From positions 1 through 64,000 of the forward strand of contig DASXVU010000005.1 in NCBI GenBank assembly GCA_036504055.1: a stretch of DNA of 64,000 nt. Direction: 5' to 3'. Source of the stretch: Methanomassiliicoccales archaeon (lineage in GTDB: Archaea > Thermoplasmatota > Thermoplasmata > Methanomassiliicoccales > UBA472). Position 1 is the first letter of the stretch; each line of letters opens with the position of its first letter. Below the pieces are notes generated by a model. That model was not told where the DNA came from and made no database searches. It worked only from the letters and a program-made list of their open reading frames with translations. Both the position numbers and the translations under genes were made by a program. Positions 9,878 through 64,000 of this stretch are shown here, in pieces.

Positions 9878-10582
9878 TCAGAACCTTGCCTTCAGAACGA
9901 CAATCCCCTCTCTGCGGGATATGTCAATGGACTGCTTGCCGGTCTGGTGGTTGGTACCCCTCATCTTCAGCACCTCCAGGTACTTCCTTCGGGCACCCAT
10001 CTCCTCCGAGAGCATGAGCAGGATTATGCCGTCTACCGCGTATGATACTTCCGTCGGATAGAGCTCGCCCGGGTTCACTTCGCCGGTCACCAGCGTGGTG
10101 GCGTTCCAGTTCTTCAGGCGATTGGATAGGTCGAAAAGGAACTGTCGGTAGTCTCCCTTCATCATGCCACCGATCACAGTGATCGGATCGATGACTATGC
10201 GCTGGGGCACGACCTCGGCGATCTTCTCTTCGATCATCGACATGAGCTCGCTTGGCTTGGTGTCCCTGATCATGGCCCCGAGGTCCATGTAGACGATCTC
10301 GTCGTTGAAGTAACCCTGATCCATGAAATCGAACTGGGACGCATACCGCAGCATCCACTGGGTCGGTTCGCTGAGAGTGGTGAAATAGAGCCCCTGCTCA
10401 CCCTTCTTGGCCCCTTCGCAGAGGTACTTCAGTGCGAAGGTGGTCTTCCCCGTCCCCGCTGGTCCCGAGAGAAGAATGACTGAAGGGAACGGGAACCCTC
10501 CCTCGATCATATCGTCGAGACCAGGTATACCGCTGGTCAATCGGATCAAGTCAGGCCGCTTCTTGCACTCATCTTTTTCCAT
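9878..10582 (-). CDS. KaiC-family (RecA/RadA-like) ATPase
   Basis: A single KaiC domain opens TSGIPGLDDMIEGGFPFPSVILLSG. Walker A is GPAGTGKT (residues 40-47), the catalytic Glu region is TTLSEPTQW, and Walker B is RIVIDPITVIGG near residue 130. This is one KaiC repeat (234 aa), unlike the two of cyanobacterial KaiC. It belongs to the archaeal signalling set often paired with degenerate partners. Its ATG overlaps the upstream gene's stop by one base (10582), so the two proteins are translationally coupled and probably form a complex. Confidence 0.85.
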   Translation of the reverse strand: MEKDECKKRPDLIRLTSGIPGLDDMIEGGFPFPSVILLSGPAGTGKTTFALKYLCEGAKKGEQGLYFTTLSEPTQWMLRYASQFDFMDQGYFNDEIVYMDLGAMIRDTKPSELMSMIEEKIAEVVPQRIVIDPITVIGGMMKGDYRQFLFDLSNRLKNWNATTLVTGEVNPGELYPTEVSYAVDGIILLMLSEEMGARRKYLEVLKMRGTNHQTGKQSIDISRREGIVVLKARF

Positions 10583-14932: not shown

Positions 14933-15936
14933 ACAAGAGAGTCGTGGTGATCGGTGGGGACGGGATAGGCCCGGAGGTCACCGCGTCCGCCATCAAGGTG
15001 CTGGAGGCCGTGCATGCCCCGCTCGACCTGACCTTCGCCAGCATGGGACTGGAATGCTACAGGCGAACCGGGTCCTATCTCCCCGAAGAGACGGTCAACG
15101 CACTGGATGGCACCGATGCCTGCCTTTTCGGTGCGATCACATCCCCCGATGCGAGTGTCAAAGACTACCGTTCACCTATACTCTGGCTTCGGAAACATTT
15201 CGATCTGTACGCCAATGTGAGACCGGTGAAGAGGCTGGTCCCGGATCTGGGCATCGGCGACCTGAACGCGGTCATCGTTCGTGAGAACACCGAAGGCATG
15301 TACACCGGCATAGAGCATGCCGAGAACGGCGTCGTCACGCTGGAACGAAAGGTGTCCGAAAAGGCCTGCCGCCGTCTGGTGCGCTATGCGATAGAACATT
15401 GCCGCCGGGAAGGCATCGACAACATCACCTGTGTGCACAAGTCGAACGTGCTCAGGCTTTCCGATGGCATGTTCAAAAGGGTGTTCTACGAAGAGGTGTC
15501 CAGTTCCGGTCTGAAGGCGAATGACCTGTTGGTGGACGCTGCGGCGGCAGCCCTGATCATAAAACCGAAACAGTTCGGGTGCCTGGTCACCCTTAACCTT
15601 TACGGCGATATCCTATCGGACGAGGCGGCAGCGGTCGTTGGAGGCTTGGGATTCGCCCCTTCTGTCAACCACGGGGACCGATTCGACATCTACGAGCCGA
15701 CCCACGGTTCCGCCCCGGACATCGCCGGGAAGGGTATCGCCAACCCGACCGCGGCGATCCTTTCCTCGAGCATGATGCTCCGGGACATGGGATCGAGACG
15801 GGAGGCGACGCTCGTCGATGCCGCGGTCGTCTCCGCCTTAAGGAAGGGGGTCCGGACCCCGGACGCCGGAGGTTCGGCCACCACCGATGAGTTCACCGAG
15901 ACGGTGCTGGCCGCCCTGGAACAGGCTCAACGGTAG
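14929..15936 (+). CDS. Isocitrate/isopropylmalate dehydrogenase family protein (LeuB/AksF-type)
   Basis: The 335-aa protein carries GGDGIGPEV at the N-terminus, RENTEGMYTGIEH, the substrate Lys/Asn segment HKSNVLRLSDGMF, the metal-binding LYGDILSDEAAAVVGGLG and the NAD loop EPTHGSAPDIAGKGIANPTA. In methanogens such enzymes serve leucine (LeuB) or coenzyme B (AksF) synthesis, or act as isocitrate dehydrogenase; sequence alone does not decide. Overlap with dys suggests shared transcription rather than shared pathway. Its end overlaps the convergent AAA gene by ten bases. Confidence 0.9.
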   Translation: MNKRVVVIGGDGIGPEVTASAIKVLEAVHAPLDLTFASMGLECYRRTGSYLPEETVNALDGTDACLFGAITSPDASVKDYRSPILWLRKHFDLYANVRPVKRLVPDLGIGDLNAVIVRENTEGMYTGIEHAENGVVTLERKVSEKACRRLVRYAIEHCRREGIDNITCVHKSNVLRLSDGMFKRVFYEEVSSSGLKANDLLVDAAAAALIIKPKQFGCLVTLNLYGDILSDEAAAVVGGLGFAPSVNHGDRFDIYEPTHGSAPDIAGKGIANPTAAILSSSMMLRDMGSRREATLVDAAVVSALRKGVRTPDAGGSATTDEFTETVLAALEQAQR

Positions 15937-16844
15937 AGGGGGTCGTGGGACGTGGCCAGCCGGTGTTCGTTGCCCATGCCGGCAAGCTTCATTACCTGAT
16001 ACTTCTGGGCATCCCGGTAGCTGCCTTTCCGGTCGTGAATGACATTGGCCTCCCTCGGTGTGACCGTCGGGTCGGTCTTCTTCATGAACCGGTAGAGCAT
16101 GTCGCTACTGGGAAGATCGAACCTTATGCCGAACATCCGGTTCTCGATGGCGGGATCGATCTCCCGGTCGTTGGAGGCGGCTATCATGTAGCCCTCGAAC
16201 TCATCGATGAAGTTCAGGAACGCCACCACCGATTCTAGCAGAGAACCGAACGATTTCATATCGTTCCGGTTGTGCAGGATCAGGTCACAGTCGTCGATGA
16301 ACAGAACACTGTCCTTGCCCACCGCCCTCTTGACCGAGTTGATCACCCGAATGGTGTCCCCGATATACTCGCCGAGAAGCATCGAGGCTGGGATCGAATA
16401 GGTCTTCAATCCCCGCTGCTGAGCGTTGGCCAGCAGCTCATGGGCGAAAAGGGTCTTCCCCGTACCAGGCTCACCGCTGAGCAGTATCTTCTTCCACGGT
16501 TCCTTGCCGTTCCTGAACAGGCTGAGGTACGCCTTTGCCAGGTCCGATGAGATGAGCGCCTCGTCGATGTTCTCGTCAGGCCTCTTCACGAAACCGAATC
16601 TCTCCACGTCCATCCCGTCCTCCTGGACGGTGAGATCGAGACGTGTGTGCCGGTCAGTGTGGAGCGCCTCGGCAGGCTCGATCTTCTCTACCTTAACGTA
16701 GATCATTTCGCCGATCTTGAAATCCTGGATGTCCTCATCCTTGAAGTACTCGATGATGAAATGCTCGAGCGAGCGCCGGTTCATGGCGTCGCCGCGGAAC
16801 AAAGGGAATACCCTGACCTTGACATTCTTAGCCCTGGAGAACAT
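15927..16844 (-). CDS. AAA+ ATPase
   Basis: An N-terminal region of about 80 residues (not recognised) is followed by an AAA+ module: Walker A GEPGTGKT (about 121-128), Walker B VLFIDDCDLIL (about 172-182), sensor-1 MIAASNDREID, and an arginine-rich ENRMFGIRFDLP segment. The N-terminal part may bind the partner encoded just upstream, whose gene overlaps by 17 bases. The single AAA domain and small size suggest a substrate-specific remodelling or chaperone role, as in MoxR- or Rubisco-activase-type ATPases; this is inference. Confidence 0.82.
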   Translation of the reverse strand: MFSRAKNVKVRVFPLFRGDAMNRRSLEHFIIEYFKDEDIQDFKIGEMIYVKVEKIEPAEALHTDRHTRLDLTVQEDGMDVERFGFVKRPDENIDEALISSDLAKAYLSLFRNGKEPWKKILLSGEPGTGKTLFAHELLANAQQRGLKTYSIPASMLLGEYIGDTIRVINSVKRAVGKDSVLFIDDCDLILHNRNDMKSFGSLLESVVAFLNFIDEFEGYMIAASNDREIDPAIENRMFGIRFDLPSSDMLYRFMKKTDPTVTPREANVIHDRKGSYRDAQKYQVMKLAGMGNEHRLATSHDPLYR

Positions 16845-17730
16845 GCTGAATCACCTCCGGTGGAAGAACCGAATCGATCATGAACTTCGATTTGGGCTCC
16901 AAGTACTTCATCTTGATGAATGCTTTGATGTCGTCCACCTCGAAGATCGGGACATGGCCGTTATCGATGACCGTGCCGAAGGACGGAGAGACGATCATGC
17001 CGGTCAGATCTTCCAGCAGCGCATCCCCTATCCCGAAGGCCAGCCGCGAGTTGTCGTTATAGCCGTTTACCTGGTATTCGGTGTCTAGATAGTCTGTCTC
17101 CGAGAACATCATGTAACGGTCCCCCTTCAGTCCTGCCAGCTGTGACACTACCGGGGCATAGGCCCTGATCCGGTCGTTCAGGAGATCGGAATACTCGTCC
17201 AGAACAGAACTGGCCGCCGCCCACACCCAGACCTGCCGGGCGAAGGAGCTCTCCTCACCGTCGTTCCCTTCGATGGGCCTGAGCTCCATCCGTGCCAGCC
17301 TGTCGCCCAGATCGCTCATGCCCAATGCCTCGTCGCAATCGGGACAGGAACATCCATAACCTATCAGGTTGCCGGAGGTAATGGCCGGGTCATCGAATCG
17401 GAAGAGCGGCGGAATGATGTTGGAGAGGACGAATCCCTTGACCGAATCCGCATACGGCGATCCTTCGATTGCCAGAGTTATCATTTCCACCATCGGGCCC
17501 AGGTCTGCCTGGGGGCATGCGTAAGCCGCCCGGGTGCCGCTGGAATATAATGCCCTCATCCTCTGGGGGAGGTTCATGCCGATGTTCACTCCGACATGGA
17601 GCCCTCCGAAATTGTCCACCAGGTCATCGACCCTGTCCGCCGAGGCGTCATCGTCGATCATGCTAATGTCTACTAGTGGAGTCCCTTTGCCTTCTGAAAA
17701 GATCAGCCTATGGCCTTCTTCGAAATTCAT
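16828..17730 (-). CDS. Unknown 300-aa protein coupled to the AAA+ ATPase
   Basis: I do not recognise the family. It has no signal peptide or membrane helices. It contains a compact cysteine cluster GCSCPDCDEAL near residue 127, which could bind zinc, and alternating hydrophobic stretches (LHVGVNIGMNLPQRM; GFVLSNIIPPLFRFDD). The name-level resemblance of CSCPDCD to zinc sites of tRNA-guanine transglycosylases is weak. It is the first gene of a two-gene operon, overlapping the AAA ATPase by 17 bases, so it is probably the client or adaptor of that ATPase. Confidence 0.65.
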   Translation of the reverse strand: MNFEEGHRLIFSEGKGTPLVDISMIDDDASADRVDDLVDNFGGLHVGVNIGMNLPQRMRALYSSGTRAAYACPQADLGPMVEMITLAIEGSPYADSVKGFVLSNIIPPLFRFDDPAITSGNLIGYGCSCPDCDEALGMSDLGDRLARMELRPIEGNDGEESSFARQVWVWAAASSVLDEYSDLLNDRIRAYAPVVSQLAGLKGDRYMMFSETDYLDTEYQVNGYNDNSRLAFGIGDALLEDLTGMIVSPSFGTVIDNGHVPIFEVDDIKAFIKMKYLEPKSKFMIDSVLPPEVIQHVLQG

Positions 17731-17832: not shown

Positions 17833-18501
17833 CTATTGCTTTGTTCGACTGGCGATTTCCTTCCTGGCCAATTCCTTGGTCCTGACTATCGCGTCGCCTA
17901 TGGCCTTGACGGTGCCCTCCCTCCGTTCATGCTTCATGCACAGCATGCAGGCGAGCTCTTGGGATCTCACCTCGTTCGACGCCGTATCCCCCGCCCCGGT
18001 GTCGATGAAGAGGACGCGGGTGAAGCCCTCGAACATCATCTTGAGGAAGAACAGAGGTTCGTATCCCTGGTCCCTCATGCTGTCCAGCTTGAAGAGCTTG
18101 ATCAGCCCATCCGGTCCGTTCCGGGCCCATCCAGACGGATAGAACCAGGTTATGCCCCCAGATTTTTTCTCCCGGTGGTACTCATCGTCAGGCAACATGG
18201 CGGCAATGCAATCCTCATATTCCAGCATGACCAACGGAACATTGACCTTCTCTGGCATGCCCTTCAACGTCTGGCAGTGACCATAACCGAGGAAAACGGC
18301 GTCATATTGACCCTCCATGGTGGCAAGGCGTTCCTGGATCCGCTTGAGGAGCTCATCGGTATAGATATGGAGGCCGAAATCCAGGTATTCACGGTATACG
18401 ATGTCCGGATCGTCCTTGGTGACCTGTTCGATCTCGTCCCTGATCGCGTCGCAGCCGAGGATGGCGATCCGCATGCCCCCCACGATGCGTTGCGAAGACA
18501 T
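17833..18501 (-). CDS. DUF1638 domain protein
   Basis: The 222-aa protein begins (from the internal ATG 18474) MRIAILGCDAIRDEIEQV, typical of DUF1638. It continues with DAVFLGYGHC and VMLEYEDCIAAML, then the FFLKMMFEGFTRVLFIDTG block. DUF1638 proteins are common in methylotrophic methanogens and acetogens near methyltransferase/corrinoid genes, but their function is undefined. Conserved Cys residues (GYGHC, YEDC) hint at a metal or corrinoid-linked role. No methyltransferase gene is in the window. Starts at 18501 and 18474 are both possible. Confidence 0.8.
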   Translation of the reverse strand: MSSQRIVGGMRIAILGCDAIRDEIEQVTKDDPDIVYREYLDFGLHIYTDELLKRIQERLATMEGQYDAVFLGYGHCQTLKGMPEKVNVPLVMLEYEDCIAAMLPDDEYHREKKSGGITWFYPSGWARNGPDGLIKLFKLDSMRDQGYEPLFFLKMMFEGFTRVLFIDTGAGDTASNEVRSQELACMLCMKHERREGTVKAIGDAIVRTKELARKEIASRTKQ

Positions 18502-18527: not shown

Positions 18528-19043
18528 TCACATCGGGACATCCATCATCAGATAGTGGGAGGGCGGCAATCCCAGGCGGCGATAGGCCTCGATGGCGTTG
18601 AGGTTGTCCTTGTCCACATAGAGCCTGATACCGAATACATCGCCCTGTCCCTTTGCCATGACCCTGATCTCTTCCAGCAGAGCGCGCAGAAACCCCTTCC
18701 GCCGATGATCGATATTGACATAGACGCTCTGCACCCACCAATATTCCCCGTTCCTCCAGTCGCTGAACTCGGATGTTATCATGCATTGGCCAACGACATG
18801 GCCCTCCTGCCTGACCAACAGATAGAAGCCCCTGCCCGGTTCGCCTAAGAACCGCTTCATGGCGCTGGTGACCGTCTCCCTATCCAAGGTTTTCCCTTCC
18901 GATTCCTTCGCCATTCTCAGGATGTTGTCGACGATCGCTTCGATATCGTCGGGGCCTGCTTTCGATGTAATGAAACCCATGAGATCGACCGCTCTTTCTA
19001 CCCGAAAGGCCAGGTAGGTCTTTATCTTTGACCCGCACGTCAT
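18528..19043 (-). CDS. GNAT family N-acetyltransferase
   Basis: Motif A is VQSVYVNIDHRRKGFLRALLEEI (acetyl-CoA pyrophosphate loop RRKGFL), and motif B is NLNAIEAYRRLGL near the C-terminus. The 171-aa length is normal; an internal ATG at residue 22 (MGFITSKAGPDDIE) matches usual GNAT starts better than the upstream one. The acceptor substrate cannot be inferred. It follows the heliorhodopsin gene on the same strand by 58 bases and could be co-transcribed. Confidence 0.88.
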   Translation of the reverse strand: MTCGSKIKTYLAFRVERAVDLMGFITSKAGPDDIEAIVDNILRMAKESEGKTLDRETVTSAMKRFLGEPGRGFYLLVRQEGHVVGQCMITSEFSDWRNGEYWWVQSVYVNIDHRRKGFLRALLEEIRVMAKGQGDVFGIRLYVDKDNLNAIEAYRRLGLPPSHYLMMDVPM

Positions 19044-19101: not shown

Positions 19102-19884
19102 TCACACTGGCCGGAGCGTGCCCGCGAACACCTGCCATGCCAGAGCGGTCTTCGCCACCAGACTGAGCACTATGTAGATGTACTCCCCGTACAGGTAGTC
19201 CTTCCATCTTCCTACTTTGCGATACTGCAGGATCATATTGAATGCGAAGGAAAAGAAGAACACCGCCAGGGATATGAAGATGAAATAAACGAAGGTGGGG
19301 ACCGAGTTCGAACTTGTCGACCCTGATCCAACGAGGTAGATCGTGATGCCTATCCAGGGGACGATACCGGCCAAGGTTCCGAAAATGAAGGGCGTCCAGT
19401 TGACCTTTTCCCTCTTCTGGTTGTACATCTCCATGAGCATCCCGAACAGGTTCATGCAGGCATTCACAGCGAAGATGGCGATCAGGCTGACGATGTCATA
19501 GATCCCGACCAACATCGATATGACCACGATCATGACCGATGAACTGACGGCATACTCGACCCACCTGGCATAGTTGATGTGATTCTCCAGGTTGGCAACG
19601 TACCATTTGAAGGCCCGAGGGGTCGAGAGCAGGAGATGATCTGCAGCCGAGATGAACAGGAACAGTGCTATCATCGGGGCGATCGGCAGATTATAGACGA
19701 CCTGGACCACGGGATCGAGATGTTGGGTCAGCTGGTTGTACTTGAGGAATGAACTAGAGATCGGCAGGGCATAATTGCTGCTGATGGCTAGAATAATGGC
19801 AGCCTGGACAAAATGAAGAAAACCCATTGCGATGTTGAATCTTCTCAGTCCCTTGTAGGTTGGTGATTCCCTCGTCATGATCAT
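19102..19884 (-). CDS. Heliorhodopsin (retinal-binding photoreceptor)
   Basis: The seven-helix protein matches heliorhodopsin 48C12 along its length. The counter-ion motif RWVEYAVSSSVMIV carries the Glu (residue 112 of the 262-aa frame). The TM5 motif GIVPWIGITIYLVGSGST and FVYFIFISLAVFFFSFAF follow, and the retinal Schiff-base Lys lies in VLSLVAKTALAWQ (residue 247). Histidines corresponding to H23 and H80 of 48C12 are present (H26, H85). The characteristic ALPIS loop after helix A is also there. Heliorhodopsins insert with the N-terminus inside and have a long photocycle; no pumping is established. The frame begins at GTG 19890, but a TATA box near 19908-19916 favours ATG 19884 or 19878. 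No carotenoid cleavage or retinal-synthesis gene is in the window. Confidence 0.95.
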   Translation of the reverse strand: MIMTRESPTYKGLRRFNIAMGFLHFVQAAIILAISSNYALPISSSFLKYNQLTQHLDPVVQVVYNLPIAPMIALFLFISAADHLLLSTPRAFKWYVANLENHINYARWVEYAVSSSVMIVVISMLVGIYDIVSLIAIFAVNACMNLFGMLMEMYNQKREKVNWTPFIFGTLAGIVPWIGITIYLVGSGSTSSNSVPTFVYFIFISLAVFFFSFAFNMILQYRKVGRWKDYLYGEYIYIVLSLVAKTALAWQVFAGTLRPV

Positions 19885-19917
19885 ACCCACATCTCAGACG
19901 GTGCCATTCGTATATGT

Positions 19918-19932
19918 TATCGACTTTCGATA
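19918..19932. promoter_or_regulatory. Palindrome upstream of the heliorhodopsin promoter
   Basis: The sequence TATCGA-CTT-TCGATA is a perfect 6-bp inverted repeat. It abuts the minus-strand TATA-like element (acatatac, 19908-19916), on the BRE side, where an activator or repressor would act. It lies in the 250-bp divergent region between heliorhodopsin and the aldo/keto reductase. The role as operator is inference. Confidence 0.4.
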
Positions 19933-20142
19933 TACAAATTGTTCTCATCCAAAACGTTATGGATCGGATCACGATCGAATGCTTGGGTCGCCGCCTCTCT
20001 CAAGGAACTTACTTTCTTGGATCGGTCAGAAAACATGGAGATCCCTTACTGAAGACAGCGGAAACAGCACCCTATTCTGCGGATTCGGTGAGCCAATGTC
20101 AAATACGAGTGCCATGACTTTTGTTTTTCCGGAGATGTCAGG

Positions 20143-21189
20143 ATGAGGTACAAACTGTTCGGTAAGGGCGGGCTCAAAGTCTCCGAGCTCTGCCTGGGTA
20201 CCATGACCTTCGGAGAGGATTGGGGATGGGGTGCCTCGAAGGAGGAGAGCAAAAGGATCTTCGATGCCTATGTCAACGCCGGAGGCACCTTCGTCGATAC
20301 GGCCAATGGCTATACCAATGGAACCAGCGAAAAATACGTGGGAGAATTTATCGCCCAGGATCGGGAAAGGTTCGTTCTTGCCACGAAATTCACGTTCGGC
20401 GGCAAACCCGACAACCCAAACGGTGGAGGGAATCATAGGAAGAGCATGTTCCAGGCCCTCAACGCCAGCCTGAAGCGCCTCAACACCGATTACGTCGACA
20501 TCTATTGGGTGCATGCGTGGGACCAGATCACTCCCCTTGAGGAGCTAATGAGGGGGCTGGACGATATGGTCCGAGCCGGAAAGGTGCTGTATGTCGGTTT
20601 CTCGGACGCCCCTGCCTGGGTCGTTGCCAGGGCGAACGCGATGGCCGAGGAAAGAGGATGGACGATCTTCACTGGATTGCAGATACCGTATAGCCTGGTG
20701 GAACGGACACCGGAGAGGGAGCTACTTCCGATGGCGAAGCACCTTGACCTGACCGTCATGGCATGGTCCCCCTTGGGTGGCGGGATCCTCAGCGGCAAAT
20801 ATAACACGGGAAACGCTGAAAAGGATGCCAGGATGAAACAGAACTATGCCCGGAATCCGTTTGCCCTGAGTGAGAGGAACCTGAAGGTGGCCGAGCAGGT
20901 GGTCGAGATAGCCAAGGAGATGAACAGGACACCCTCCCAGATAGCATTGAATTGGCTGAAGCAGAAGAGGAACGCTCTGATAGTGCCCATCCTCGGGACC
21001 AGAAGGCTGGCACAGATGGAGGACAACCTCGCCTGTCTCGATTTCTCTTTGAACGAGGCAACGATGAAGAGGCTGGACGAGGTAAGCGACGTCGATCTGG
21101 GATTCCCGAACAGCTTCCTCGGAAGGGAGATCAACAAAAAGATGATACTGGGAGATTATTGGGACAGTTTAGACAACCATCGTGCTTGA
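20143..21189 (+). CDS. Aldo/keto reductase
   Basis: The 348-aa TIM-barrel oxidoreductase has the catalytic tetrad context: FVDTANGYTNG (Asp and Tyr), LATKFTF (Lys) and DIYWVHAWD (His). The NADP-binding C-terminal region reads VPILGTRRLAQMEDNL. It belongs to the Tas/YajO-like group of AKRs acting on small carbonyls; the physiological substrate is unknown. It is divergent from heliorhodopsin and separated by about 250 bases. Confidence 0.93.
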   Translation: MRYKLFGKGGLKVSELCLGTMTFGEDWGWGASKEESKRIFDAYVNAGGTFVDTANGYTNGTSEKYVGEFIAQDRERFVLATKFTFGGKPDNPNGGGNHRKSMFQALNASLKRLNTDYVDIYWVHAWDQITPLEELMRGLDDMVRAGKVLYVGFSDAPAWVVARANAMAEERGWTIFTGLQIPYSLVERTPERELLPMAKHLDLTVMAWSPLGGGILSGKYNTGNAEKDARMKQNYARNPFALSERNLKVAEQVVEIAKEMNRTPSQIALNWLKQKRNALIVPILGTRRLAQMEDNLACLDFSLNEATMKRLDEVSDVDLGFPNSFLGREINKKMILGDYWDSLDNHRA

Positions 21190-21619: not shown

Positions 21620-24600
21620 ATGGAAAATAGAGAAGGAACCCGTCTACGGTCCATTATGATAGTGACAATGATCCTGACTGGAGCGTTCTTTGTCGTTTCA
21701 CCAAGTCCATCAACTGCCGAGCAGGCAGGCGATTACACCTATTCGATCAACGACGGGTCCGCAGTGATATCAGCCTATACCGGAGCAGGAGGGGCTGTCA
21801 CCATCCCTTCCTCCCTGGGGGGATATACAGTGACGGGCATCGGCGCCTATGCGTTCAACAATGCTGCGGGCTTCTCGGTAAGGTCCTTGATCATCCCCGA
21901 TAGCGTGACAAGCATCGATATCTACGCCTTCGATGGATGCACTGCGCTCACCTCGTTGACGCTGGGCAGCAGCCTCCTCACCATAGGCAACGGTGCATTC
22001 GAGCGTTGTTCTGGTCTGATCTCCGTCACCATTCCCAACAGCGTCACCAGGATCGGAAGCTGGGCGTTCTATTCCTGCACTTCCCTCTCCACCCTGACCC
22101 TGGGAAGCGGCGTGGTCAACATTGGCGATTATGCCTTTGACGGGTGTTCCGCCCTGGTCTCGTTGACCATCCCCAACAATGTGGTCAGCGTCGGAACGAG
22201 CGCGTTCGAGGGTTGCTCCGCGTTAACCTCCGTGTCCATATCAAACCGGGTACAGACCATCGGCAGTTTTGCGTTCTATGACTGCAAGGCACTTATGACC
22301 GTGACGATGGGCAGCGGTGTGACAAGCGTAGGCAGCTCCATGTTCTATGGTTGCGATCTCTTGACCTCGATCACCTTCTTGGGGCTGGTCGCACCGACCT
22401 CGGTCGGTTCATACTGGTTGCCCCTCAACTCGTACATAATCAGAGGTCATGCCTATGCCACCTCGAATTTTCCCGCCCCAGGCAACACATACTACGGCCT
22501 GATGATGGAGTCTACCATCGATCCAGTGGTCCCAGAAGCTCCGAACGGACTTTCTGCGGCTCCCGCCGATGCTGGGATGGTCCTTACGTGGTCGGCGCCC
22601 TCCTCGAGCGGCGGTGGGTCTATCATCGACTACAAGATGTACCGAGGGACCGCATCCGCAGGGGAATCATATATCGGACACACGGGCAGCGGTTCTGCTC
22701 TGACCTATACGGACACTGGCCTGACCAACGGCGCTACATATTACTATCAGGTCACTGCCGTGAATGCCTATGGGGAAGGGCCGGGAAGCAATGAGATCTC
22801 TGGAAAGCCTTCGGTCGCATTGTCAGCTCCGCGGGACCTTCAAATAACAGCCGGCGACAGCCAGGCATCACTTACCTGGACAATGCCGAGCACAATAGGT
22901 GACTATCCGATCGATTACTATATCGTCTATCAGGACGGGGTCGACGTAAGACATCCGACCGGTACCACCTCGATCATCACGGGCCTTAACAATGGACAGC
23001 CCTACATCTTTGCAGTAGCCGCCCATAATTCCGTGGGCGTTGGACCCCAAACGGCCGCAACACCGACGACTCCGGTTACCTCAAAGACGGTTCCAGGAGC
23101 TCCGACCGGACTGGTTGCGACACCTGGTAATGCCCAGGTGGCACTTTCCTGGTCTGCACCAGTTAGCAATGGAGGTGCGACCATAGACTATTATCTTGTC
23201 CTTGTGGACGGAGTTGCCAAAACGGCCCACTATAGCACAACGACCGCGACCGTTTCCGGTCTGACCAATGGTCATCAATACAGTTTCACGGTCACCGCCC
23301 ACAACGTCATCGGCACCAGCCTCCAGTCAGCTGCGGTGAAATCGACACCAACGGCACCAGTGACGGTTCCAACCGCGCCCAGGGACCTGACCACCATGCC
23401 CGGTGATGGGCAGGTGTCACTGACATGGTCTGCTCCATCCAGTAACGGAGGGGCGGCCATCGACTATTATCTCGTCTATGTCGATGGGGTTGTAAGGACC
23501 GACCACTATCCTGCGAGTTCCGCGATCATAACTGGGCTGACCAATGCAAAATCCTACAGCTTCACTGTCGCCGCACACAATTCCGTTGGGGTCAGCTCCC
23601 AGTCCTCGGCCATCATCGCGAAGCCTGCTGCCACGATCACGGTTCCGGGAGTCCCTGTTGGTCCGAACTCCGTGCCTGGGGATGGGCAGATTGCATTAAC
23701 ATGGTCAGCACCCTCCAGTAACGGTGGGGCCAACATCGATTATTATCTGGTCTATACCGACGGAGTCGTCGGAACAGATCATTATACGACCACATCGGCC
23801 ACCATCACTGGACTGACCAATGGCCAAACCTACAGTTTCACCATTGTGGCCCATAATTCGGTCGGAACCGGAGCGCAGTCAGCGGCCGTGAAGGCCAAGC
23901 CATCCACCTCCACGACCGTTCCAGGAGTCCCGATCGGTCTGACCGCGATGCCGGGAGATGGCCAGGTCGAGCTTTCATGGTCAGCCCCCGGGAGCAACGG
24001 GGGAGCGGCCATCGATTATTATCTGGTCTACGTCGACGGGGTTGCGAGAACCGATCATTACCCGACCAGTTATGTGACGTTGACGGACCTTGCCAACGGC
24101 AGGTCCTATACCTTCGCCGTCTCAGCCCACAACATCATTGGGGACGGTATACGATCTTCAGCCGTGACCTCCACCCCTTCGGTGACCCTGACCGTTCCAG
24201 GCGTGCCTACCGGATTGGTCGCCGTTCCTGGAGATGGCCAGGTATCTTTATCTTGGACGATCCCGAGCGGCAATGGCGGCTCGGTGATCGACTATTATGT
24301 CATCTATCGAAATGGCAGTGATGTGTCCCATGTGACATCCACGTCTGAAACGGTCACCGACCTGATGAACGGTCAGATGTATGGGTTCACCGTGGCTGCC
24401 CACAATGCAATCGGAATGGGAGCGCAATCATCTTCCGTTACCGCTATGGCTTCCGCCACCACCGCCGTCCCTGGCGCCCCATTCGGCCTGACGGCCACCC
24501 CTGGTGATGGCCAGATCGTGCTATCATGGTCATCTCCTGGCAGCAATGGTGGGGCGACGATCGATTATTATGTGATCTACATCAACGGGACCCAGATGGC

Positions 24601-25702
24601 AGATCATTTTGTGGATAACGTCGAAGTTATTTCCGGATTGATCAACGGGCTGCAATACAACTTCACAGTGGCTGCCCATAACTCGGTCGGGATCGGTCCA
24701 CAATCATCCGTCCTGTCGGCGATGCCTTCGCCTACAATAACGGTTCCTGGGATCCCAGGTGGTCTCAACGTCACTTTGGTCAAGGACCTGGTTTCATTGT
24801 CGTGGGATCCTCCCAGCGTCAACGGAGGGGACGCGATCGATTATTATGTGATCTTCCAGGATGGCGTGGATGCCTATCATGAAACAGCCACCTCAAAGAT
24901 GATCGTAGGTCTGACCAACGGACGGCTCTATAACTTCACAGTGGCAGCCCACAACTCGGTCGGAGTGGGGCAGAGTTCCACAATGGTCAACGCCACCCTG
25001 CACTGGAGCCCGGCGCTGCCAGATGTACCTTCCAATGTGACAGTTGTGCCAGGCGATGGATTGGTTACGATTACCTGGAGCGATCCCGATAGCCCTGGCA
25101 GTTCTCCGATAGATTACTATGTCGTCTATCAGGACGGTGTCGAGGTAGCGCACCTCATTGGTAATGTGACCACCATCACCGGTTTGACAAACGGCCTAAC
25201 CTATGATTTTGTGGTTGCTGCCCATAATTCAGAGGGCATGGGGGAGAACTCGACCGCCATCACAGTCACGCTTACATCAAGAGCGGAACCACCAGGAACC
25301 ACCATGGGCCTGACGGTCACGCCCGGTAACTCGTCGCTGATGATCAGCTGGACCGCCCCCCAGTATTCAGGATCCTTCGAGATAGATTACTACGTCGTAT
25401 ATCAGGACGGTGTGGATGTTCTGCATGTTATCGATAACCAGACCACCATTGGCGGCCTCAACAACGGGCAGAACTACACCATCGAAGTGGGTGCCCATAA
25501 CGCGGCCGGCGTGAGCAACCGATCGATTGCGCTCACCGTATCCCCCATGGGACCTAATTCCACCAACACAGAGACGTCCTCCCCGACCAAACAGGACAAC
25601 AGCAGCAGCAACGTCATTCTCAACGTCGGTGCTGTCCTGCTGTTGATGGCGGCGATATTCGGGATCGTTTTGGCCGTTGAGAGGTTGAAGAAGAAGGCCT
25701 GA
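21620..25702 (+). CDS. Giant surface protein: BspA-type leucine-rich repeats plus eleven fibronectin III domains
   Basis: Residues 1-36 form a signal peptide (SIMIVTMILTGAFFVVSP, then STAEQ). Residues about 60-290 hold BspA/TpLRR-type repeats with recurring SVTSIDIYAFDGCTALTSL-like units of 22-23 residues. From about 302 to 1310 there are eleven fibronectin type III domains of about 92 residues, each with PxGL...W..P...G...IDYY.VY.DG...TGLTNG..Y.F.V.AHN. A Ser/Thr/Asn-rich linker and one C-terminal membrane helix (VGAVLLLMAAIFGIVLAV) end in VERLKKKA. It is therefore anchored outside the cell. BspA and FnIII proteins mediate adhesion to host or to other cells. Many NxS/T sites suggest N-glycosylation. 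Confidence 0.9.
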   Translation: MENREGTRLRSIMIVTMILTGAFFVVSPSPSTAEQAGDYTYSINDGSAVISAYTGAGGAVTIPSSLGGYTVTGIGAYAFNNAAGFSVRSLIIPDSVTSIDIYAFDGCTALTSLTLGSSLLTIGNGAFERCSGLISVTIPNSVTRIGSWAFYSCTSLSTLTLGSGVVNIGDYAFDGCSALVSLTIPNNVVSVGTSAFEGCSALTSVSISNRVQTIGSFAFYDCKALMTVTMGSGVTSVGSSMFYGCDLLTSITFLGLVAPTSVGSYWLPLNSYIIRGHAYATSNFPAPGNTYYGLMMESTIDPVVPEAPNGLSAAPADAGMVLTWSAPSSSGGGSIIDYKMYRGTASAGESYIGHTGSGSALTYTDTGLTNGATYYYQVTAVNAYGEGPGSNEISGKPSVALSAPRDLQITAGDSQASLTWTMPSTIGDYPIDYYIVYQDGVDVRHPTGTTSIITGLNNGQPYIFAVAAHNSVGVGPQTAATPTTPVTSKTVPGAPTGLVATPGNAQVALSWSAPVSNGGATIDYYLVLVDGVAKTAHYSTTTATVSGLTNGHQYSFTVTAHNVIGTSLQSAAVKSTPTAPVTVPTAPRDLTTMPGDGQVSLTWSAPSSNGGAAIDYYLVYVDGVVRTDHYPASSAIITGLTNAKSYSFTVAAHNSVGVSSQSSAIIAKPAATITVPGVPVGPNSVPGDGQIALTWSAPSSNGGANIDYYLVYTDGVVGTDHYTTTSATITGLTNGQTYSFTIVAHNSVGTGAQSAAVKAKPSTSTTVPGVPIGLTAMPGDGQVELSWSAPGSNGGAAIDYYLVYVDGVARTDHYPTSYVTLTDLANGRSYTFAVSAHNIIGDGIRSSAVTSTPSVTLTVPGVPTGLVAVPGDGQVSLSWTIPSGNGGSVIDYYVIYRNGSDVSHVTSTSETVTDLMNGQMYGFTVAAHNAIGMGAQSSSVTAMASATTAVPGAPFGLTATPGDGQIVLSWSSPGSNGGATIDYYVIYINGTQMADHFVDNVEVISGLINGLQYNFTVAAHNSVGIGPQSSVLSAMPSPTITVPGIPGGLNVTLVKDLVSLSWDPPSVNGGDAIDYYVIFQDGVDAYHETATSKMIVGLTNGRLYNFTVAAHNSVGVGQSSTMVNATLHWSPALPDVPSNVTVVPGDGLVTITWSDPDSPGSSPIDYYVVYQDGVEVAHLIGNVTTITGLTNGLTYDFVVAAHNSEGMGENSTAITVTLTSRAEPPGTTMGLTVTPGNSSLMISWTAPQYSGSFEIDYYVVYQDGVDVLHVIDNQTTIGGLNNGQNYTIEVGAHNAAGVSNRSIALTVSPMGPNSTNTETSSPTKQDNSSSNVILNVGAVLLLMAAIFGIVLAVERLKKKA
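22523..25560 (+). repeat. Eleven tandem ~276-bp fibronectin III coding repeats
   Basis: The DNA repeats with a period of about 276 bases, matching one FnIII domain each. Repeats 4, 5 and 6 are most alike (shared GDGQ, WSAP, SNGGA, IDYYLVY, TDHY blocks). The outer domains 1, 10 and 11 are more diverged, a gradient typical of growth by internal duplication. Such arrays can change number by recombination. Confidence 0.8.
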
Positions 25703-51471: not shown

Positions 51472-52398
51472 TCAATGTTTGATGGAGTCCCTTGCCTTGA
51501 CCTCGCACTCGGTCATGATCCGGATGAGGGTGCTCCCTTTCATCCTGGAACCGGTTATGCGGGCGATGTCGCCCAGCTTCCGCCCATATACCTCGAGCTC
51601 AGCTATCTGATTCCCATATTCCTCGAACGGCACCTTGACCCGCAGGCCATCGAGGTGCAGGACGATCGGAGCCGGACGCAGTGATTCGCTGACCGCCTGG
51701 ATCTGCTCCAGGCGCTCCTTGATCTCGGAGGGGTGTACAAAAAGGGGGTCCTCGTCGATCTCCTTGCGGCGCTTGCCGATGGTCATGTCGACCGCGGTGG
51801 ACACCTCTTCCAGCTTCTCGATCTCCTCCGCTCGCCTCATCCTTTCCACCTTGCGGCCCACCCCCGATACGAGCGCCTCGCAGTTAGGCAACCCGGGTAT
51901 GTCTGGACCGCACACCACGGTCACCGGTACCGAGATGTCCTGGAAAAGCCGCACCTTGTCGTTGATGATGCAGTCCTTGAAATTGCCCAGCACGAACACA
52001 GCCGCATCATACTCGTCAATGATCGCCCTCTCGTCGGCGGTTATCTGCGCGGTGGCCCGCCCTTTACCCCTGGCAAGACCCATCACCACGGTGATGGCGC
52101 CATAGCGGCGCAGCTGCTCGGCGATATCGCATATGGGGTGGGGCATATGATGCCGACCCAGGGTCGGACCGACGACCACGATCTCCGTTCCTGCCAGCGG
52201 AACATCGACCAGCTTCGCCCCGAGCTCGCGCGATTTCGCCTCGATGATCGGCTGGTCCTCTTCTGGGATGGCCATGGTCACCGTTATCATCACCTGGATA
52301 GTGGTCTTCTGGATCACGAATCCGCCGATGTCCTCGATCAGCTCATATAGCTCGTTGATACGGTAGACGCCACCGTCGAACAGCAGGACCTTGTACAT
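51472..52398 (-). CDS. mmp7: Methanogenesis marker protein 7
   Basis: From ATG 52398 the protein reads MYKVLLFDGGVYRINELYEL and continues through VVVGPTLGRHHMPHPICDIAEQLRRYGA, matching the methanogen-restricted Mmp7 family (about 308 aa). Mmp7 is a subunit of the ATP-driven MCR activation complex with McrC, Mmp3, Mmp17 and component A2. Many frames extend upstream to 52680, but the true start overlaps the mmp17 stop (TGATG). It is the last marker gene of the minus-strand operon. Confidence 0.94.
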   Translation of the reverse strand: MYKVLLFDGGVYRINELYELIEDIGGFVIQKTTIQVMITVTMAIPEEDQPIIEAKSRELGAKLVDVPLAGTEIVVVGPTLGRHHMPHPICDIAEQLRRYGAITVVMGLARGKGRATAQITADERAIIDEYDAAVFVLGNFKDCIINDKVRLFQDISVPVTVVCGPDIPGLPNCEALVSGVGRKVERMRRAEEIEKLEEVSTAVDMTIGKRRKEIDEDPLFVHPSEIKERLEQIQAVSESLRPAPIVLHLDGLRVKVPFEEYGNQIAELEVYGRKLGDIARITGSRMKGSTLIRIMTECEVKARDSIKH

Positions 52399-52955
52399 CA
52401 GAGCGCCTCCATTTCCTTCTGGGTCGATGCGCCCAGGGCTATCTGCTCCGGAGTGAGAGTCCTTTCGGTGGCGGTAATGGTCATGGCGATCTCCGACGCC
52501 TCCTCCTGCCTTACCTTGAATCCTTCCGGCAGAAGCCTCCACACGGCGTCCAACAGCTTCTTCTTGAGCTCCTCTTCCGGGTCCAAACGAAGCGATTCGA
52601 TGTCCCCGGCGGTCATCCCTTTGGCGAAGATCTCCAGCCGGGTGATCTGCTCGATCCTCTCCCTGCCGAACGTCCTCCACAGCAGCGAGAGCAGCCGCGG
52701 GGCATAGTTCTCGTCGATTATGGAGATGAACGTCCCCCCTTCCCTCTCCTCGATCGTGGATATCTCGGAGACCATTCTGGACCCCCCGGCCTTCCGCATA
52801 CGGATGGAAATGATGAAGAGGGGTTCGGCCGGTCTGATGATCATCTTTACTTTGTCGATGGATGTGGTGATGCCCATGTCGACCAGCGTCCGCTCCAACA
52901 GGAGCGAGTAGCTTTCGTTCGCGAAGCTTTCCGGCCCTTCCACAATGATCTCCAT
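52398..52955 (-). CDS. mmp17: Methanogenesis marker protein 17
   Basis: The 185-aa protein matches Mmp17: MEIIVEGPESFANESYSLLL, then VKMIIRPAEPLFIISIRMRK, the ISIIDENYAPRLLSLLWRTFGRERIEQ block and the RLEI strand. It is known as part of the MCR activation assembly and has no annotated enzymatic motif. It is separated from mmp15 by one base and overlaps mmp7 by one base. Confidence 0.93.
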   Translation of the reverse strand: MEIIVEGPESFANESYSLLLERTLVDMGITTSIDKVKMIIRPAEPLFIISIRMRKAGGSRMVSEISTIEEREGGTFISIIDENYAPRLLSLLWRTFGRERIEQITRLEIFAKGMTAGDIESLRLDPEEELKKKLLDAVWRLLPEGFKVRQEEASEIAMTITATERTLTPEQIALGASTQKEMEAL

Positions 52956-52956
52956 C

Positions 52957-54186
52957 TCAATGTCCCTCTAGGAACCCGGACGACAGCAAGGCCGCGCCGG
53001 CGGCGCCGATGTACTGGGAATGGGGCGGTACTATCGGTCTTTGCCCCAGCGTGTCCTCCATAGCCCGGACCATTCCGCTTATGAGGGAGGTCCCTCCGAC
53101 CTGGATGACCGGATATCGCACCTCGATCTCCTGCAGCTGCTGTTCGAATATCTGCTCTGCGACCGAGTGACAGGCGGCTGAGGCGACATCCTCCATGGTG
53201 TTGCCCGCCGCAAGAGAGGTGACCAGGTCCTGGATGCCGAACACCGAGCAGTAGGAGTTCATGGGCACTTTCTTGTAGTCTCCCTTGTCCGCCATCTGTC
53301 CCAGTTCGGTGATCTCCACATGCAGGCGCTTCGCCACCATTTCAAGGAACCTTCCTGACGCACCGGCGCAGATGCCTCCCATGGTGAAGTTGTCCGGGAT
53401 GCCGTCCCGTACGGTTATGGCCTTGTTGTCCATACCACCGATGTCAATGATGGTGGCCTCCCCTTTCTGACGGTCGGCCAGCCAAACGGCGCCCTTCGAG
53501 TTGGTGGTCAGCTCTTCCTGCACCAGTTTGGCATTGAACCTCTTTCCCAGGGTAAAACGCCCATATCCGGTAGTGCCTATGGCCTCGAGCTGCTCTCTCT
53601 TGACGCCCGCCTCGGCCAGCGCTTTCTCCAGGGCAGTGTCGGCCGAACTGAAAACATCCTGAGTGGGCAGCCAGAACTTACCTATGATCTCGTTGTCGCG
53701 CATGATCATGGCCTTGGTGGTCGACGAACCGGAATCTATGCCCGCGGTGAGTCCGACCTGGCGTTCTCTGGCAAGCAGTTCCTTGCGTTCCACTATGGTG
53801 ACCAGAGCCTCCATTCTGGTGAGCATCTGGGCCGACTTGGTCCTTTCCGTGAACGAGTAGGTGACGACCGGCAGCCGGGTGTGCTCCTGGATGTACTTTC
53901 TCAGTTCCGTCCTCACCAGCGCCGCCTCGGCGCAGCGGAAGCAGGAGGCAATGAACACCGCATCGGCGTCGTAGTGGCCCTCGGCCACGTTCACGGCCCG
54001 GGCGATCATCAGTTTCAGCTGGGGCGAGACCGGGTTGAACCCAAACTTCTCTATGGCCGATTTGATGTCTTCCAGGTCCACGTCCGGGTAGACCATCTTT
54101 CCGCCAACCGCCCCGGCAGCCCTTTCGATCTCGTCCTGTACTCCCGAATACTCGGTCCCGCAGGATAACTGTGCAATCTTGATCAT
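52957..54186 (-). CDS. mmp15: Methanogenesis marker protein 15 (BcrAD/BadF-type ATPase)
   Basis: The 409-aa protein has an N-terminal marker-specific region with [20 protein letters not shown]. From about 145 comes an ASKHA ATPase core: [14 protein letters not shown] (phosphate 1), [14 protein letters not shown] (phosphate 2) and [15 protein letters not shown] (the Cys-bearing BadF loop), ending [14 protein letters not shown]. This is the activase type that drives low-potential electron transfer to Fe-S clusters. By analogy it may power reductive activation of MCR nickel. Its ATG overlaps the mmp5 stop (ATGA). Confidence 0.95.
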
Positions 54187-54617: not shown

Positions 54618-55042
54618 TGTTGACACACCTCATCGCAAATCTTCTTCAGCTCCGAGACCGGGAGCTTCTTCCGCTTGGGGACCTCGCAGACCTTGCCCTT
54701 GTTCTCGGCGCACTCCAGGCCGGCCTCGAACATCGGCAGGTCCTTCCATTCCTTCTCCAGCTGGGTGAACCCTGGCCTAGAGCCGTGCTCCGCGCGACAT
54801 CTCCGCGCGTCCCCGATGGGGAAGCCCCTCACCTTGGAGAACAGCCGGTTGGGGTCCAGCTTCCGGACCTCCGCCAGCACCTTGGCCACCACCTCGGGCT
54901 GACCCTGTATGATGACCCCGAAACAGGTCTCCTTGATCTGGATGTCCACGGCCATCGTGTGGATGAAGCGGGTGATCTGGTCTGGAGTGATGGAAGAGGT
55001 CGGCGCTATGACGATGTACCTGGTCTCACTGGTCTTCGGCAT
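54614..55042 (-). CDS. mmp6: Methanogenesis marker protein 6
   Basis: The 142-aa protein matches Mmp6: [73 protein letters not shown], and a Cys-rich C-terminus ([16 protein letters not shown]). It overlaps mmp3 by 17 bases and mmp5 by four. The exact role is unknown; it is a methanogen-wide marker. Confidence 0.93.
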
Positions 55043-56654
55043 CCTTTTTCACCTTTTTCTTCGCTGATGGCTTCTTCTTTTCCGACGTCGACGGCGACCT
55101 GGGCTTCTTCGCCTTGGGTGCCGGTGCAGACTTGGGTGCCTGGCGGATATAAACGATATCCCCGTCCTTCAGTCCTGCCATGAGGGCATTGAGGTCGGAG
55201 AGGACGATGCCGGACATGTTGGTCCCGTGCTCCTCCTCGCCTGTGGGGCCGAACTCGTTGCTCGGTTCCAGACGGATCCCGATCAGGCCGCGGTTGGGCC
55301 TGGACATGTTGGTGACGCCCATCTCTCCGCGCACCACCCCCTTCTCGACGGAGAACGCGTTCTCGGGGACCAGGCCTGATGCCACTGACGCGTTACCTTC
55401 GAAGGTCACCATGGGCATCCCTTCGAAGGTGAAGTGGACCTTCATGGTGCCGATCGGCTTATGGTCCAGTCCGGACATCTTGCGGATGTAGTGGGAGGTG
55501 ATCGGTGCCTCCTCGTCCGCCAGCGTGACGTCTCGGATCTGGTCCGACCTGATGCCGAAGGTTTCGACCTCGGGGGAACTGGCCGCGTCCATGGTGAACT
55601 CTGGCTCCTGTTCCACCACCATGCTGTCGTCCGCTCCATCGCCGGTCCTCTTCTGTTTCAGTCCCAAGGAATCCAGGAAATCCTTCGCCTGGACCTGGGT
55701 CATGCCGATGGTCATGATCCTGACCGGGTCGGTCACCATGGTGACCTCTGAATGGTCCGGGACCAAATGGATCAATTGCGCTCCGGAGACCACCAGCCCG
55801 ATGGTGTTGTGACTGGGATTCACCTGTCGGCGCAGTTTGTAGATATAGACCCTGCCAGTTCCCGCACCGGTATTCCTTACCGTGACCATGTCAGGGATCC
55901 TTATGTCGTTCGCCTCGGCGATCAGGGATACGTCCATGTTCGTTGAGCTGGCCGTATAGGCGGCGGTACGTTCCGTGAGCTTCAGCGTACCGGGGGTGAC
56001 CGTCACCAGGAAATGCTCGCAGCTGATCGGCGAGCGATGGTCCAGTTTTACCCGGACGTAACTTTCCACGCTCATCCCTTCCTCCAGCTTGGTCGCCAGA
56101 TCGGTTGTCGCGAAGGCGTCCTTGGAGCTGAGCTCAAGGACCACGGGGCTGACCTCGATGATCTTGTCCGACTCTCTTAGCGAGGAGAGCACATGCCTTC
56201 CCTTCGTGACGTGGCCGATCACCCCTCCGGCAAGACCGTACTCGCCTTCATGGTCCGACCTTGCGAACATCACGTAGGTGGTGTTGGCATCAAATCCACC
56301 CAGGGACAGGAAGGCCTCGTATCGGGAATACTTGGCCTTTCCCTTTACGGAGGTCAGATCGGTAGGGAAGGAACCGACCGCGATGACCTTGGAGGTAGCC
56401 CAACGTACCGACTTGCCGGCCGTTTGGATGTACGCTTCCTTCCAGGTCCTTGCCTCGGCAGAATCGTTCAGTTTGAGAACGAATGCTCCCTTTGTGGTGG
56501 TGAACTTGAACTCGTCCGTCCCTTTCCGGACCTTGTCCATCGGCCGAATGCAAGCCAGCATAGTGCCTGGCGTGTAGGGCTCTCCAGCAATCACATCGCC
56601 GACGGTCGCCCCTTCGTTTGCCTCGACCGACCTGCCATTAACAATTATTCTCAT
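55026..56654 (-). CDS. mmp3: Methanogenesis marker protein 3
   Basis: The 542-aa protein matches Mmp3: MRIIVNGRSVEANEGATVGDVI (a ThiS-like N-terminal strand-helix), paired beta domains with GGVIGHVTKGRHVLS and MGVTNMSRPNRGLIGIRLEPSNEFGPTGE, and DGDIVYIRQAP near the end. It resembles a peptidyl-prolyl-isomerase-like marker family and is a subunit of the MCR activation complex. The Lys/Pro/Ser-rich tail of about 30 residues (KKPRSPSTSEKKKPSAKKKVKK) looks specific to this lineage. ATG 56654 with GGGAGA upstream is preferred over TTG 56666. Confidence 0.94.
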   Translation of the reverse strand: MRIIVNGRSVEANEGATVGDVIAGEPYTPGTMLACIRPMDKVRKGTDEFKFTTTKGAFVLKLNDSAEARTWKEAYIQTAGKSVRWATSKVIAVGSFPTDLTSVKGKAKYSRYEAFLSLGGFDANTTYVMFARSDHEGEYGLAGGVIGHVTKGRHVLSSLRESDKIIEVSPVVLELSSKDAFATTDLATKLEEGMSVESYVRVKLDHRSPISCEHFLVTVTPGTLKLTERTAAYTASSTNMDVSLIAEANDIRIPDMVTVRNTGAGTGRVYIYKLRRQVNPSHNTIGLVVSGAQLIHLVPDHSEVTMVTDPVRIMTIGMTQVQAKDFLDSLGLKQKRTGDGADDSMVVEQEPEFTMDAASSPEVETFGIRSDQIRDVTLADEEAPITSHYIRKMSGLDHKPIGTMKVHFTFEGMPMVTFEGNASVASGLVPENAFSVEKGVVRGEMGVTNMSRPNRGLIGIRLEPSNEFGPTGEEEHGTNMSGIVLSDLNALMAGLKDGDIVYIRQAPKSAPAPKAKKPRSPSTSEKKKPSAKKKVKKDAEDQ

Positions 56655-56702
56655 CTGGTCTCCCAAGTGATGCTTCGGACTGTTAATAATGTTTGTTACC
56701 AG

Positions 56703-57440: not shown

Positions 57441-58043
57441 TCAAAGGTGCTTCTTGACCTTGGACACGATCTCGTCCAGTTTGGACTGTGAGATGGTCGA
57501 CCCGCGTATGACCCCGGTAATGATCTCCACGATCTCGCCCTTGGTCCCGATATTCTCCGGTTTGGGCATGACATATCTGGTCCTCACGCCGATGCGGGCG
57601 AAGTCCTCGAAATCGACCGGTGCCTGGCAGACCACGACGGCCGGCATGTCCACGTTCCTCAGGATGAGCCGCGCCTTGTAGATGATGTGGGCCTTCACGT
57701 TCCCCAGGTGGATCAATGCCAACTTGAACTGCTGTATCCTTTTGATCTCGATATCGTCCAGACCGAAGATGGAGCCGGTCGATACGTCGGGTGCGTCGGA
57801 AGGGACCCCCGATCCGGCATTGATCACGATGACACTGGTATCGATGCCTTCCTCCCTCAGCTCATAGGTGATCTCGCAGACCGGCTTGGTGATGTGACGC
57901 TTTCCCGGACCCATGGCCACCGCGACCACCTGCCTTCCGCTCTCCGAGATCGTGGCCTTTTGGGCCAGACTTCCGCCGACACCGAGACCTCGAGCCTCCC
58001 GGCATTCCACAAAACGGGTCTTACGACCGATGCTCTCTTTCAC
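57441..58043 (-). CDS. mcrC: Methyl-coenzyme M reductase operon protein C
   Basis: The 200-aa protein matches Mcr[57 protein letters not shown] and the [27 protein letters not shown] block. McrC is part of the A3a component that reduces Ni in F430 of MCR. Here it is outside the mcr operon, placed after atwA with a GTGA overlap (58040-58043), so both are co-translated. Start is GTG 58043. Confidence 0.95.
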
Positions 58044-63425: not shown

Positions 63426-64000
63426 TCACATCGGGGGTATGATGGTCGACCTCTCGCCGGCTGGCATGAACTCGCGCAGAGCGCCGCGGCCGAGCTCCTT
63501 CGTTATGTTGGCGAAGTCGAACGGGAGGTTCTTGTCAGCGAACGCGATCTTGATCAGCGGGTTGCAGGCGAAAGCGTCTCCCCTCGCAGCGTGCGGGGCG
63601 GCGGCGATTCCGGCGTAACCTGGCAGGTGACCGACGTTCATGGCGTAGTTGGGGTAGTTCGGGCCACGGAGTTCGTGCGGGAGACCCTCGTCGGACCTGT
63701 ACGACAGCGAGTTGGACGCGCCGCACATATCCTGCAGGTCGTAACCGTAGAATCCGAGTCTTCCGAGCCTCTCCCTGTGCTGGAGCATGGACAGGTACCA
63801 TGCGTTGACACCGGCGTTGGCGTTGGCGGTTGCCATCGCTACACCGATACCAGTTGCGGCGGCTGCAACGGTCGCTCTCTGCGAGCCACCGAAGTGGGAT
63901 TCCATTGCTGCCGGGTACCTTTCGTACTGCTCCAGTGCGTAGGAGTTGATCTCGGTTCCGAGCTTGTTGACGAGGTCCATCGTCGGCTTGCTCTTGGTGA
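63426..64000 (-). CDS. mcrA: Methyl-coenzyme M reductase alpha subunit (3' end, partial)
   Basis: The frame enters from the right edge and ends TAG/TGA-type at 63426, giving about 191 C-terminal residues: [61 protein letters not shown] and [16 protein letters not shown]. These are the catalytic C-terminal blocks of McrA. The Gly (63744-63746) that is thioglycine in other MCRs and the methylated Cys position (63723-63725) are both conserved. The residue before that Cys is Met where most MCRs have Gln (DMCG instead of DQCG). MCR releases methane from methyl-CoM and CoB. The 5' part lies outside the window. Confidence 0.98.

Follow-up and report, generated by a model that had tools for sequence, protein, structure and literature searches.

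Heliorhodopsins are light-responsive membrane proteins that require retinal, the vitamin-A aldehyde, and their function in general is still largely open. Members of the family are known from strictly anaerobic Firmicutes (PMC8612252), Bathyarchaeota (PMC7110647), and the Asgard archaeon MK-D1 (PMC7997004), and light-dependent modulation of a partner has been measured for heliorhodopsin with glutamine synthetase (PMC9529153) and with an ABC transporter (PMC11109279). Occurrence of the family in strict anaerobes and archaea is thus already known, and the methanogen host described here adds moderately to its interest. Our literature search, whose range stopped short of supplementary tables and most subscription papers, found no paper on heliorhodopsins in Methanomassiliicoccales.

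The DNA analyzed (the window) is a stretch of 64,000 nucleotides from a Methanomassiliicoccales genome, and the gene under study lies within it as follows:

19102 to 19890, minus strand: heliorhodopsin gene, recognized from its open reading frame, PF18761, NF038020, a PDB match, and an AlphaFold2 model

The reading frame starts with GTG at 19890 and encodes 262 amino acids. An earlier note on this DNA had placed the gene, with no strand named, at 19102 to 19884; the first in-frame ATG does lie at 19884, but the frame itself reaches the GTG at 19890. Residues 15 to 259 of the product matched the entire PF18761 profile (positions 1 to 242 of 242; 5.5e-100, 334.1 bits against a cut-off of 26.7), and the NCBIfam model NF038020 was matched at 340.5 bits against a cut-off of 100. 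The best match in a PDB search was the heliorhodopsin TaHeR (6is6; 1.5e-80). PF01036, the profile of type-1 microbial rhodopsins, matched neither this protein nor any other in the whole host genome. The Schiff-base lysine, Lys247 (codon 19150 to 19152), lies within SLVAKTALAWQ and aligned with Lys241 of heliorhodopsin 48C12, and the TM3 counter-ion, Glu112 (codon 19555 to 19557), lies within RWVEYAVSSS. Both motifs were found exactly as the earlier note had quoted them, and its claim that the two histidines of 48C12 are kept was also borne out, with His26 (codon 19813 to 19815) and His85 (codon 19636 to 19638) aligning with His23 and His80. TM7 contains the SxxxK motif (S243-LVA-K247), a named criterion for heliorhodopsins (PMC8612252). 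Also present are Arg109, Gln29, Ser243, and Trp252, which are positions on a proposed internal signaling path of heliorhodopsins (PMC9385722).

An AlphaFold2 model built from 24 homologues (pLDDT 88, pTM 0.84) predicted seven transmembrane helices and the beta-hairpin in the A-B loop that is typical of heliorhodopsin. Foldseek superposed this model on 6is6 with a TM score of 0.91 to 0.95 at 2.0 Å, against about 0.54 to 0.64, normalized to the query, for type-1 rhodopsins. Positive charges were seen at the N terminus and in the B-C, D-E, and F-G loops, with few charges in the A-B, C-D, and E-F loops; this pattern fits an inverted topology with a cytoplasmic N terminus, as judged by eye from a hydropathy profile in which TM3 and TM4 were not separated. 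We conclude that the window protein is a bona fide full-length heliorhodopsin and a new member of an established family.

TaHeR, from Thermoplasmatales archaeon SG8-52-1 (PDB 6is6, 7u55, 7clj), aligned with the window protein over its full length at 50 to 51% identity and has a similar fold, and the counter-ion, the Schiff-base lysine, the histidines, and the color-tuning residues were all identical between the two. The differences were the host order, Thr248 following the lysine where TaHeR has Ser, and an E-F loop longer by about 5 residues in the window protein. 48C12 (PDB 6su3, 6uh3), at 47 to 48% identity, has functional residues and predicted fold in common with the window protein, but its Gln148 and Gln213 are both Met in the latter, which predicts a blue-shifted color. 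These two sites set red heliorhodopsins apart from blue ones, with Met at both in TaHeR and in the group that absorbs below 540 nm (PMC7807009). Because the window protein has Met at both sites, as in TaHeR, we predict that it absorbs in the green, near 530 to 545 nm.

The same comparison bears on whether the protein could be driven by light to transport protons, in the manner of viral V2HeR3, or could pump some other ion. One viral heliorhodopsin does transport protons (PMC9448325), but the window protein is nearest to TaHeR and the 48C12 group, ion pumping has been described as absent in bacterial heliorhodopsins (PMC11109279), and AbHeR pumped none of the ions tested (PMC9529153). We regard a pumping function as very improbable.

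The host genome (2.66 Mb in 49 contigs, 99.9% complete) carries methanogenesis genes on the same contig as heliorhodopsin:

51472 to 52680, minus strand: methanogenesis marker 7 (334.8 bits, just below the model cut-off of 349)
52957 to 54186, minus strand: methanogenesis marker 15 (family match)
55026 to 56666, minus strand: MCR-associated protein Mmp3 (family match)
57441 to 58043, minus strand: McrC (family match)
58040 to 59674, minus strand: MCR activation component A2, AtwA (family match)
63426 to 64000, minus strand: 3' part of mcrA (family match), the gene extending beyond the window end

The MCR and MCR-activation genes had previously been described as near heliorhodopsin; at 32 to 44 kb, "nearby" is generous but correct. 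Of 147 Methanomassiliicoccales genomes, 115 have mcrA; heliorhodopsin is carried by 39 of the 147, and mcrA was detected in 33 of these. Since methanogenesis genes share the contig and mcrA is common both in the order and among the carriers, the host is a methanogen, as the earlier note had proposed.

The earlier note had also raised the concern that the gene might be foreign DNA, joined to this contig through misassembly or binning. The gene shows a slight dip in G+C content (51.6% against 54.4% for the whole window), which is the one feature in line with such an origin. Against it, the third-position G+C content of 72.6% is typical of the neighboring genes (64 to 80%), with no break in composition, and the genes on its flanks, for deoxyhypusine synthase and MCR, are archaeal. 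Furthermore, the sequences nearest to the protein belong to this order and group with it in a supported clade, and 18 of the 22 genomes in the window's own family (f1) have a heliorhodopsin match, one being a fragment below cut-off. Short of read coverage, the comparative data already refute a chimeric origin, and what chance remains for foreign DNA is vanishingly small.

Heliorhodopsin is carried by the 39 genomes across 16 of the 30 genera of Methanomassiliicoccales. In our tree, the window protein falls inside a clade of 11 sequences restricted to this order (support 99/87), with an inner group at 97/96, and three more clades are likewise restricted to the order, making four in all. The outgroup consisted of the 80 closest of 297 matches together with genomes of the phylum, a sampling in which distant relatives are thinly represented. 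Heliorhodopsins of G127, PtaU1.Bin030, and Methanomassiliicoccus sp. QR_Bin.16 form one clade with the window protein at 62 to 66% identity, but their genes lie in neighborhoods unlike that of the window. At least six genomes of the order carry two copies, and in two of them (G137 and G145; L141, L145) the genes are adjoining tandem copies from different clades. We read these patterns as old residence in the order, with paralogues, losses, and exchange among its families, and as disfavoring recent import; the four order-only clades and the double copies speak against a one-off occurrence or a newly transferred gene. Thus, a light sensor in a methanogen is less unexpected than the earlier note had supposed: methanogens are not an obvious home for a retinal photoreceptor, but the gene is widespread and apparently old among them and is known in other anaerobes.

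We screened the host genome for retinal-pathway genes by protein family. Phytoene synthase was not detected there, so CrtY-type lycopene cyclases (PF05834) would have no substrate. Neither RPE65-type oxygenase nor CrtYcd-type lycopene cyclase was detected anywhere in the order (147 genomes), where likewise no carotene dioxygenase (PF15461) scored above cut-off. Ten genomes, including that of the host, gave PF15461 matches below threshold; we rejected these as Blh, as the four loci that we opened (G000, the host, and G127, G132, and G143) encode a conserved membrane protein beside a secretion-type ATPase, the host candidate being a membrane protein in a type II/IV-secretion or archaellum-like cluster. 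The earlier note's argument that the host would have to scavenge retinal or do without it held for these four enzyme families.

Some relatives carry carotenoid genes. Compact operons at the opened loci of six genomes (G019, G021, G140, G105, G133, and G104; loci L165, L166, L167, L168, L169, and L170) contain a CrtI-type phytoene desaturase, phytoene synthase, and a UbiA-type prenyltransferase, a set resembling that for C50 carotenoids. Across the order, 11 genomes have phytoene synthase (crtB), and ten of these also carry heliorhodopsin (p = 6e-6 by Fisher test, kinship not corrected for). We rejected this operon as a source of retinal, with no CrtYcd-type lycopene cyclase or Blh alongside and the operon absent from the host genome.

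Among the order's 40 heliorhodopsins, which share a mean pairwise identity of 55% and are invariant at only 46 of 254 columns, eight residues (H26, Q29, H85, R109, E112, S243, K247, and W252) never vary. Because such retention at this level of divergence would be expected only of a retinal site in use, and because genes for synthesis were not detected, we favor uptake. Heliorhodopsins have been described as serving organisms that do not synthesize retinal, with an opening in the apoprotein that lets external retinal bind quickly (PMC9296517). The earlier note had left two options, that retinal is scavenged or that the protein works without it, and scavenging from the surroundings is the best reading of the sequence data. 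The second option would make the protein a structural partner, or a sensor for a lipid or for an aldehyde other than retinal, in dark anaerobes where light plays no part. It draws on the same lack of detected retinal genes in the order, on the slight rise in glutamine synthetase activity that one heliorhodopsin causes even in the dark (PMC9529153), and on the dark habitats of several carriers (RumEn M2, for one, lives in the rumen), which also count against a light-sensing explanation. However, Lys247, Glu112, and both histidines are kept in 40 of 40 proteins, which would not be expected had the chromophore been lost, and we consider retinal-free function unlikely. An old, widespread, and conserved heliorhodopsin in an order lacking retinal synthesis opens two matters to testing: by what means strict anaerobes acquire retinal, and whether the physiology of methanogens changes with light. 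Since the named carriers include the rumen enrichment RumEn M2, native membranes could be examined.

A more specific route to retinal was suggested by relatives in family f6. In two f6 genera, heliorhodopsin lies near a short-chain dehydrogenase/reductase (SDR) gene resembling retinol dehydrogenase and protochlorophyllide reductase (subfamily PRK06197), with most loci also containing a SemiSWEET gene; one example of the SDR lies at L161:9658-10599 (G111). By this route, scavenged retinol (vitamin A) would be oxidized to retinal without oxygen, in part of the order only. We scored presence of the SDR at 50% identity or more across the 102 f6 genomes, using a query that was picked because it had been seen beside heliorhodopsin. 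The SDR was found in all ten f6 genomes with heliorhodopsin and in one 68%-complete genome, and the two genes occurred in exactly the same 4 of 14 f6 genera (p = 0.001 by genus, with kinship among genera uncorrected). They are linked in g27 and g30, but separate contigs hold them in g26, g19, and two f5 genomes, so linkage alone cannot explain their co-occurrence. SDRs are also among the ten commonest operon neighbors of heliorhodopsin genes in general (PMC11109279). Furthermore, SDRs from within the order fall into a single clade, and the nearest clade outside the order comes mostly from genomes with type-1 rhodopsin (22 of the 27 tested), but type-1 rhodopsin is also present in two outgroup genomes that lack the SDR. 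Other observations weigh against the route: the host genome of the window holds just a distant paralogue at 33% identity, many f1 genomes with heliorhodopsin lack the SDR, G139 carries it without heliorhodopsin, and the "retinol dehydrogenase-like" label is a subfamily resemblance. These sequence patterns suggest an oxygen-free conversion of retinol to retinal in part of the order, a lead about relatives that lies outside the window's own system; as the source of retinal, we rate it as doubtful. Slightly more doubtful still is the wider proposal that methanogens keep a working photoreceptor under anoxia through uptake of retinol or retinal, partly with a dedicated SDR gained and lost together with heliorhodopsin, and that their methane metabolism responds to light.

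For the window protein, we think it probable, with real room for doubt, that a long-resident heliorhodopsin uses environmental retinal and acts as a light-driven, non-pumping modulator of a partner on the cytoplasmic side. The apoprotein would take up all-trans-retinal from its surroundings, an external source being proposed because neither the host genome nor the order shows genes to make it. Green light, predicted near the wavelengths given above, would isomerize the bound retinal; the Schiff-base proton would then shift within the protein, and a change of shape may be relayed to the partner. A likely benefit would be adjustment of metabolism or stress defense when anaerobes meet light. The role as a light-dependent modulator is proposed by analogy with the measured cases.

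The genes adjoining heliorhodopsin were considered as possible partners:

15927 to 16844, minus strand: AAA ATPase, at the end of the minus-strand run and overlapping the gene for the 300-amino-acid protein
16828 to 17730, minus strand: 300-amino-acid protein without a Pfam match, in the same run
17833 to 18501, minus strand: DUF1638 protein, in the same run
18528 to 19043, minus strand: GNAT acetyltransferase, 58 bp downstream of heliorhodopsin and co-directional with it
19891 to 20142: divergent intergenic region between heliorhodopsin and aldo-keto reductase
20143 to 21189, plus strand: aldo-keto reductase, divergent from heliorhodopsin

The GNAT acetyltransferase is the sole operon candidate in the host genome and a weak candidate for a co-transcribed partner. 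None of these five genes lies beside another heliorhodopsin among the loci of the order; beyond it, a gene resembling aldo-keto reductase was present at one Saccharibacteria locus, and one Thermoplasmatota locus gave a weak AAA match. Because the neighborhood is common to no relative, no partner is backed by conservation. No histidine kinase gene adjoins the heliorhodopsin gene of the window. The aldo-keto reductase was also considered as a retinal reductase and rejected, its subfamily offering no evidence for retinoids. Just upstream of the heliorhodopsin start, the intergenic region contains an A+T-rich stretch resembling a TATA element and an imperfect inverted repeat with arms at 19906 to 19915 and 19930 to 19939, which may be an operator or could be due to chance.

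Photolyase is a known heliorhodopsin partner elsewhere. We rejected it as a partner here, as it was undetected in 145 of 147 genomes, including that of the host, and the two weak matches did not exceed the cut-off; one of these (L171, G134:C6:16122-16610) lies about 8 kb from the heliorhodopsin gene of its genome. In eight f1 genomes (L134, L138, L139, and L141 to L145), heliorhodopsin lies divergent to a gene for an ArsA/Get3-type ATPase, the latter mostly together with a gene for a small Cys-rich protein. Shared gene order in related genomes suffices to explain this association, and we did not retain it as a sign of function. Elsewhere in the window, a KaiC-like ATPase (9878 to 10582) scored under the curated cut-offs of all KaiC models. 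Beside the heliorhodopsin region, positions 21620 to 25702 encode a surface protein of 1360 amino acids that combines BspA-type leucine-rich repeats with about eleven fibronectin type III domains.
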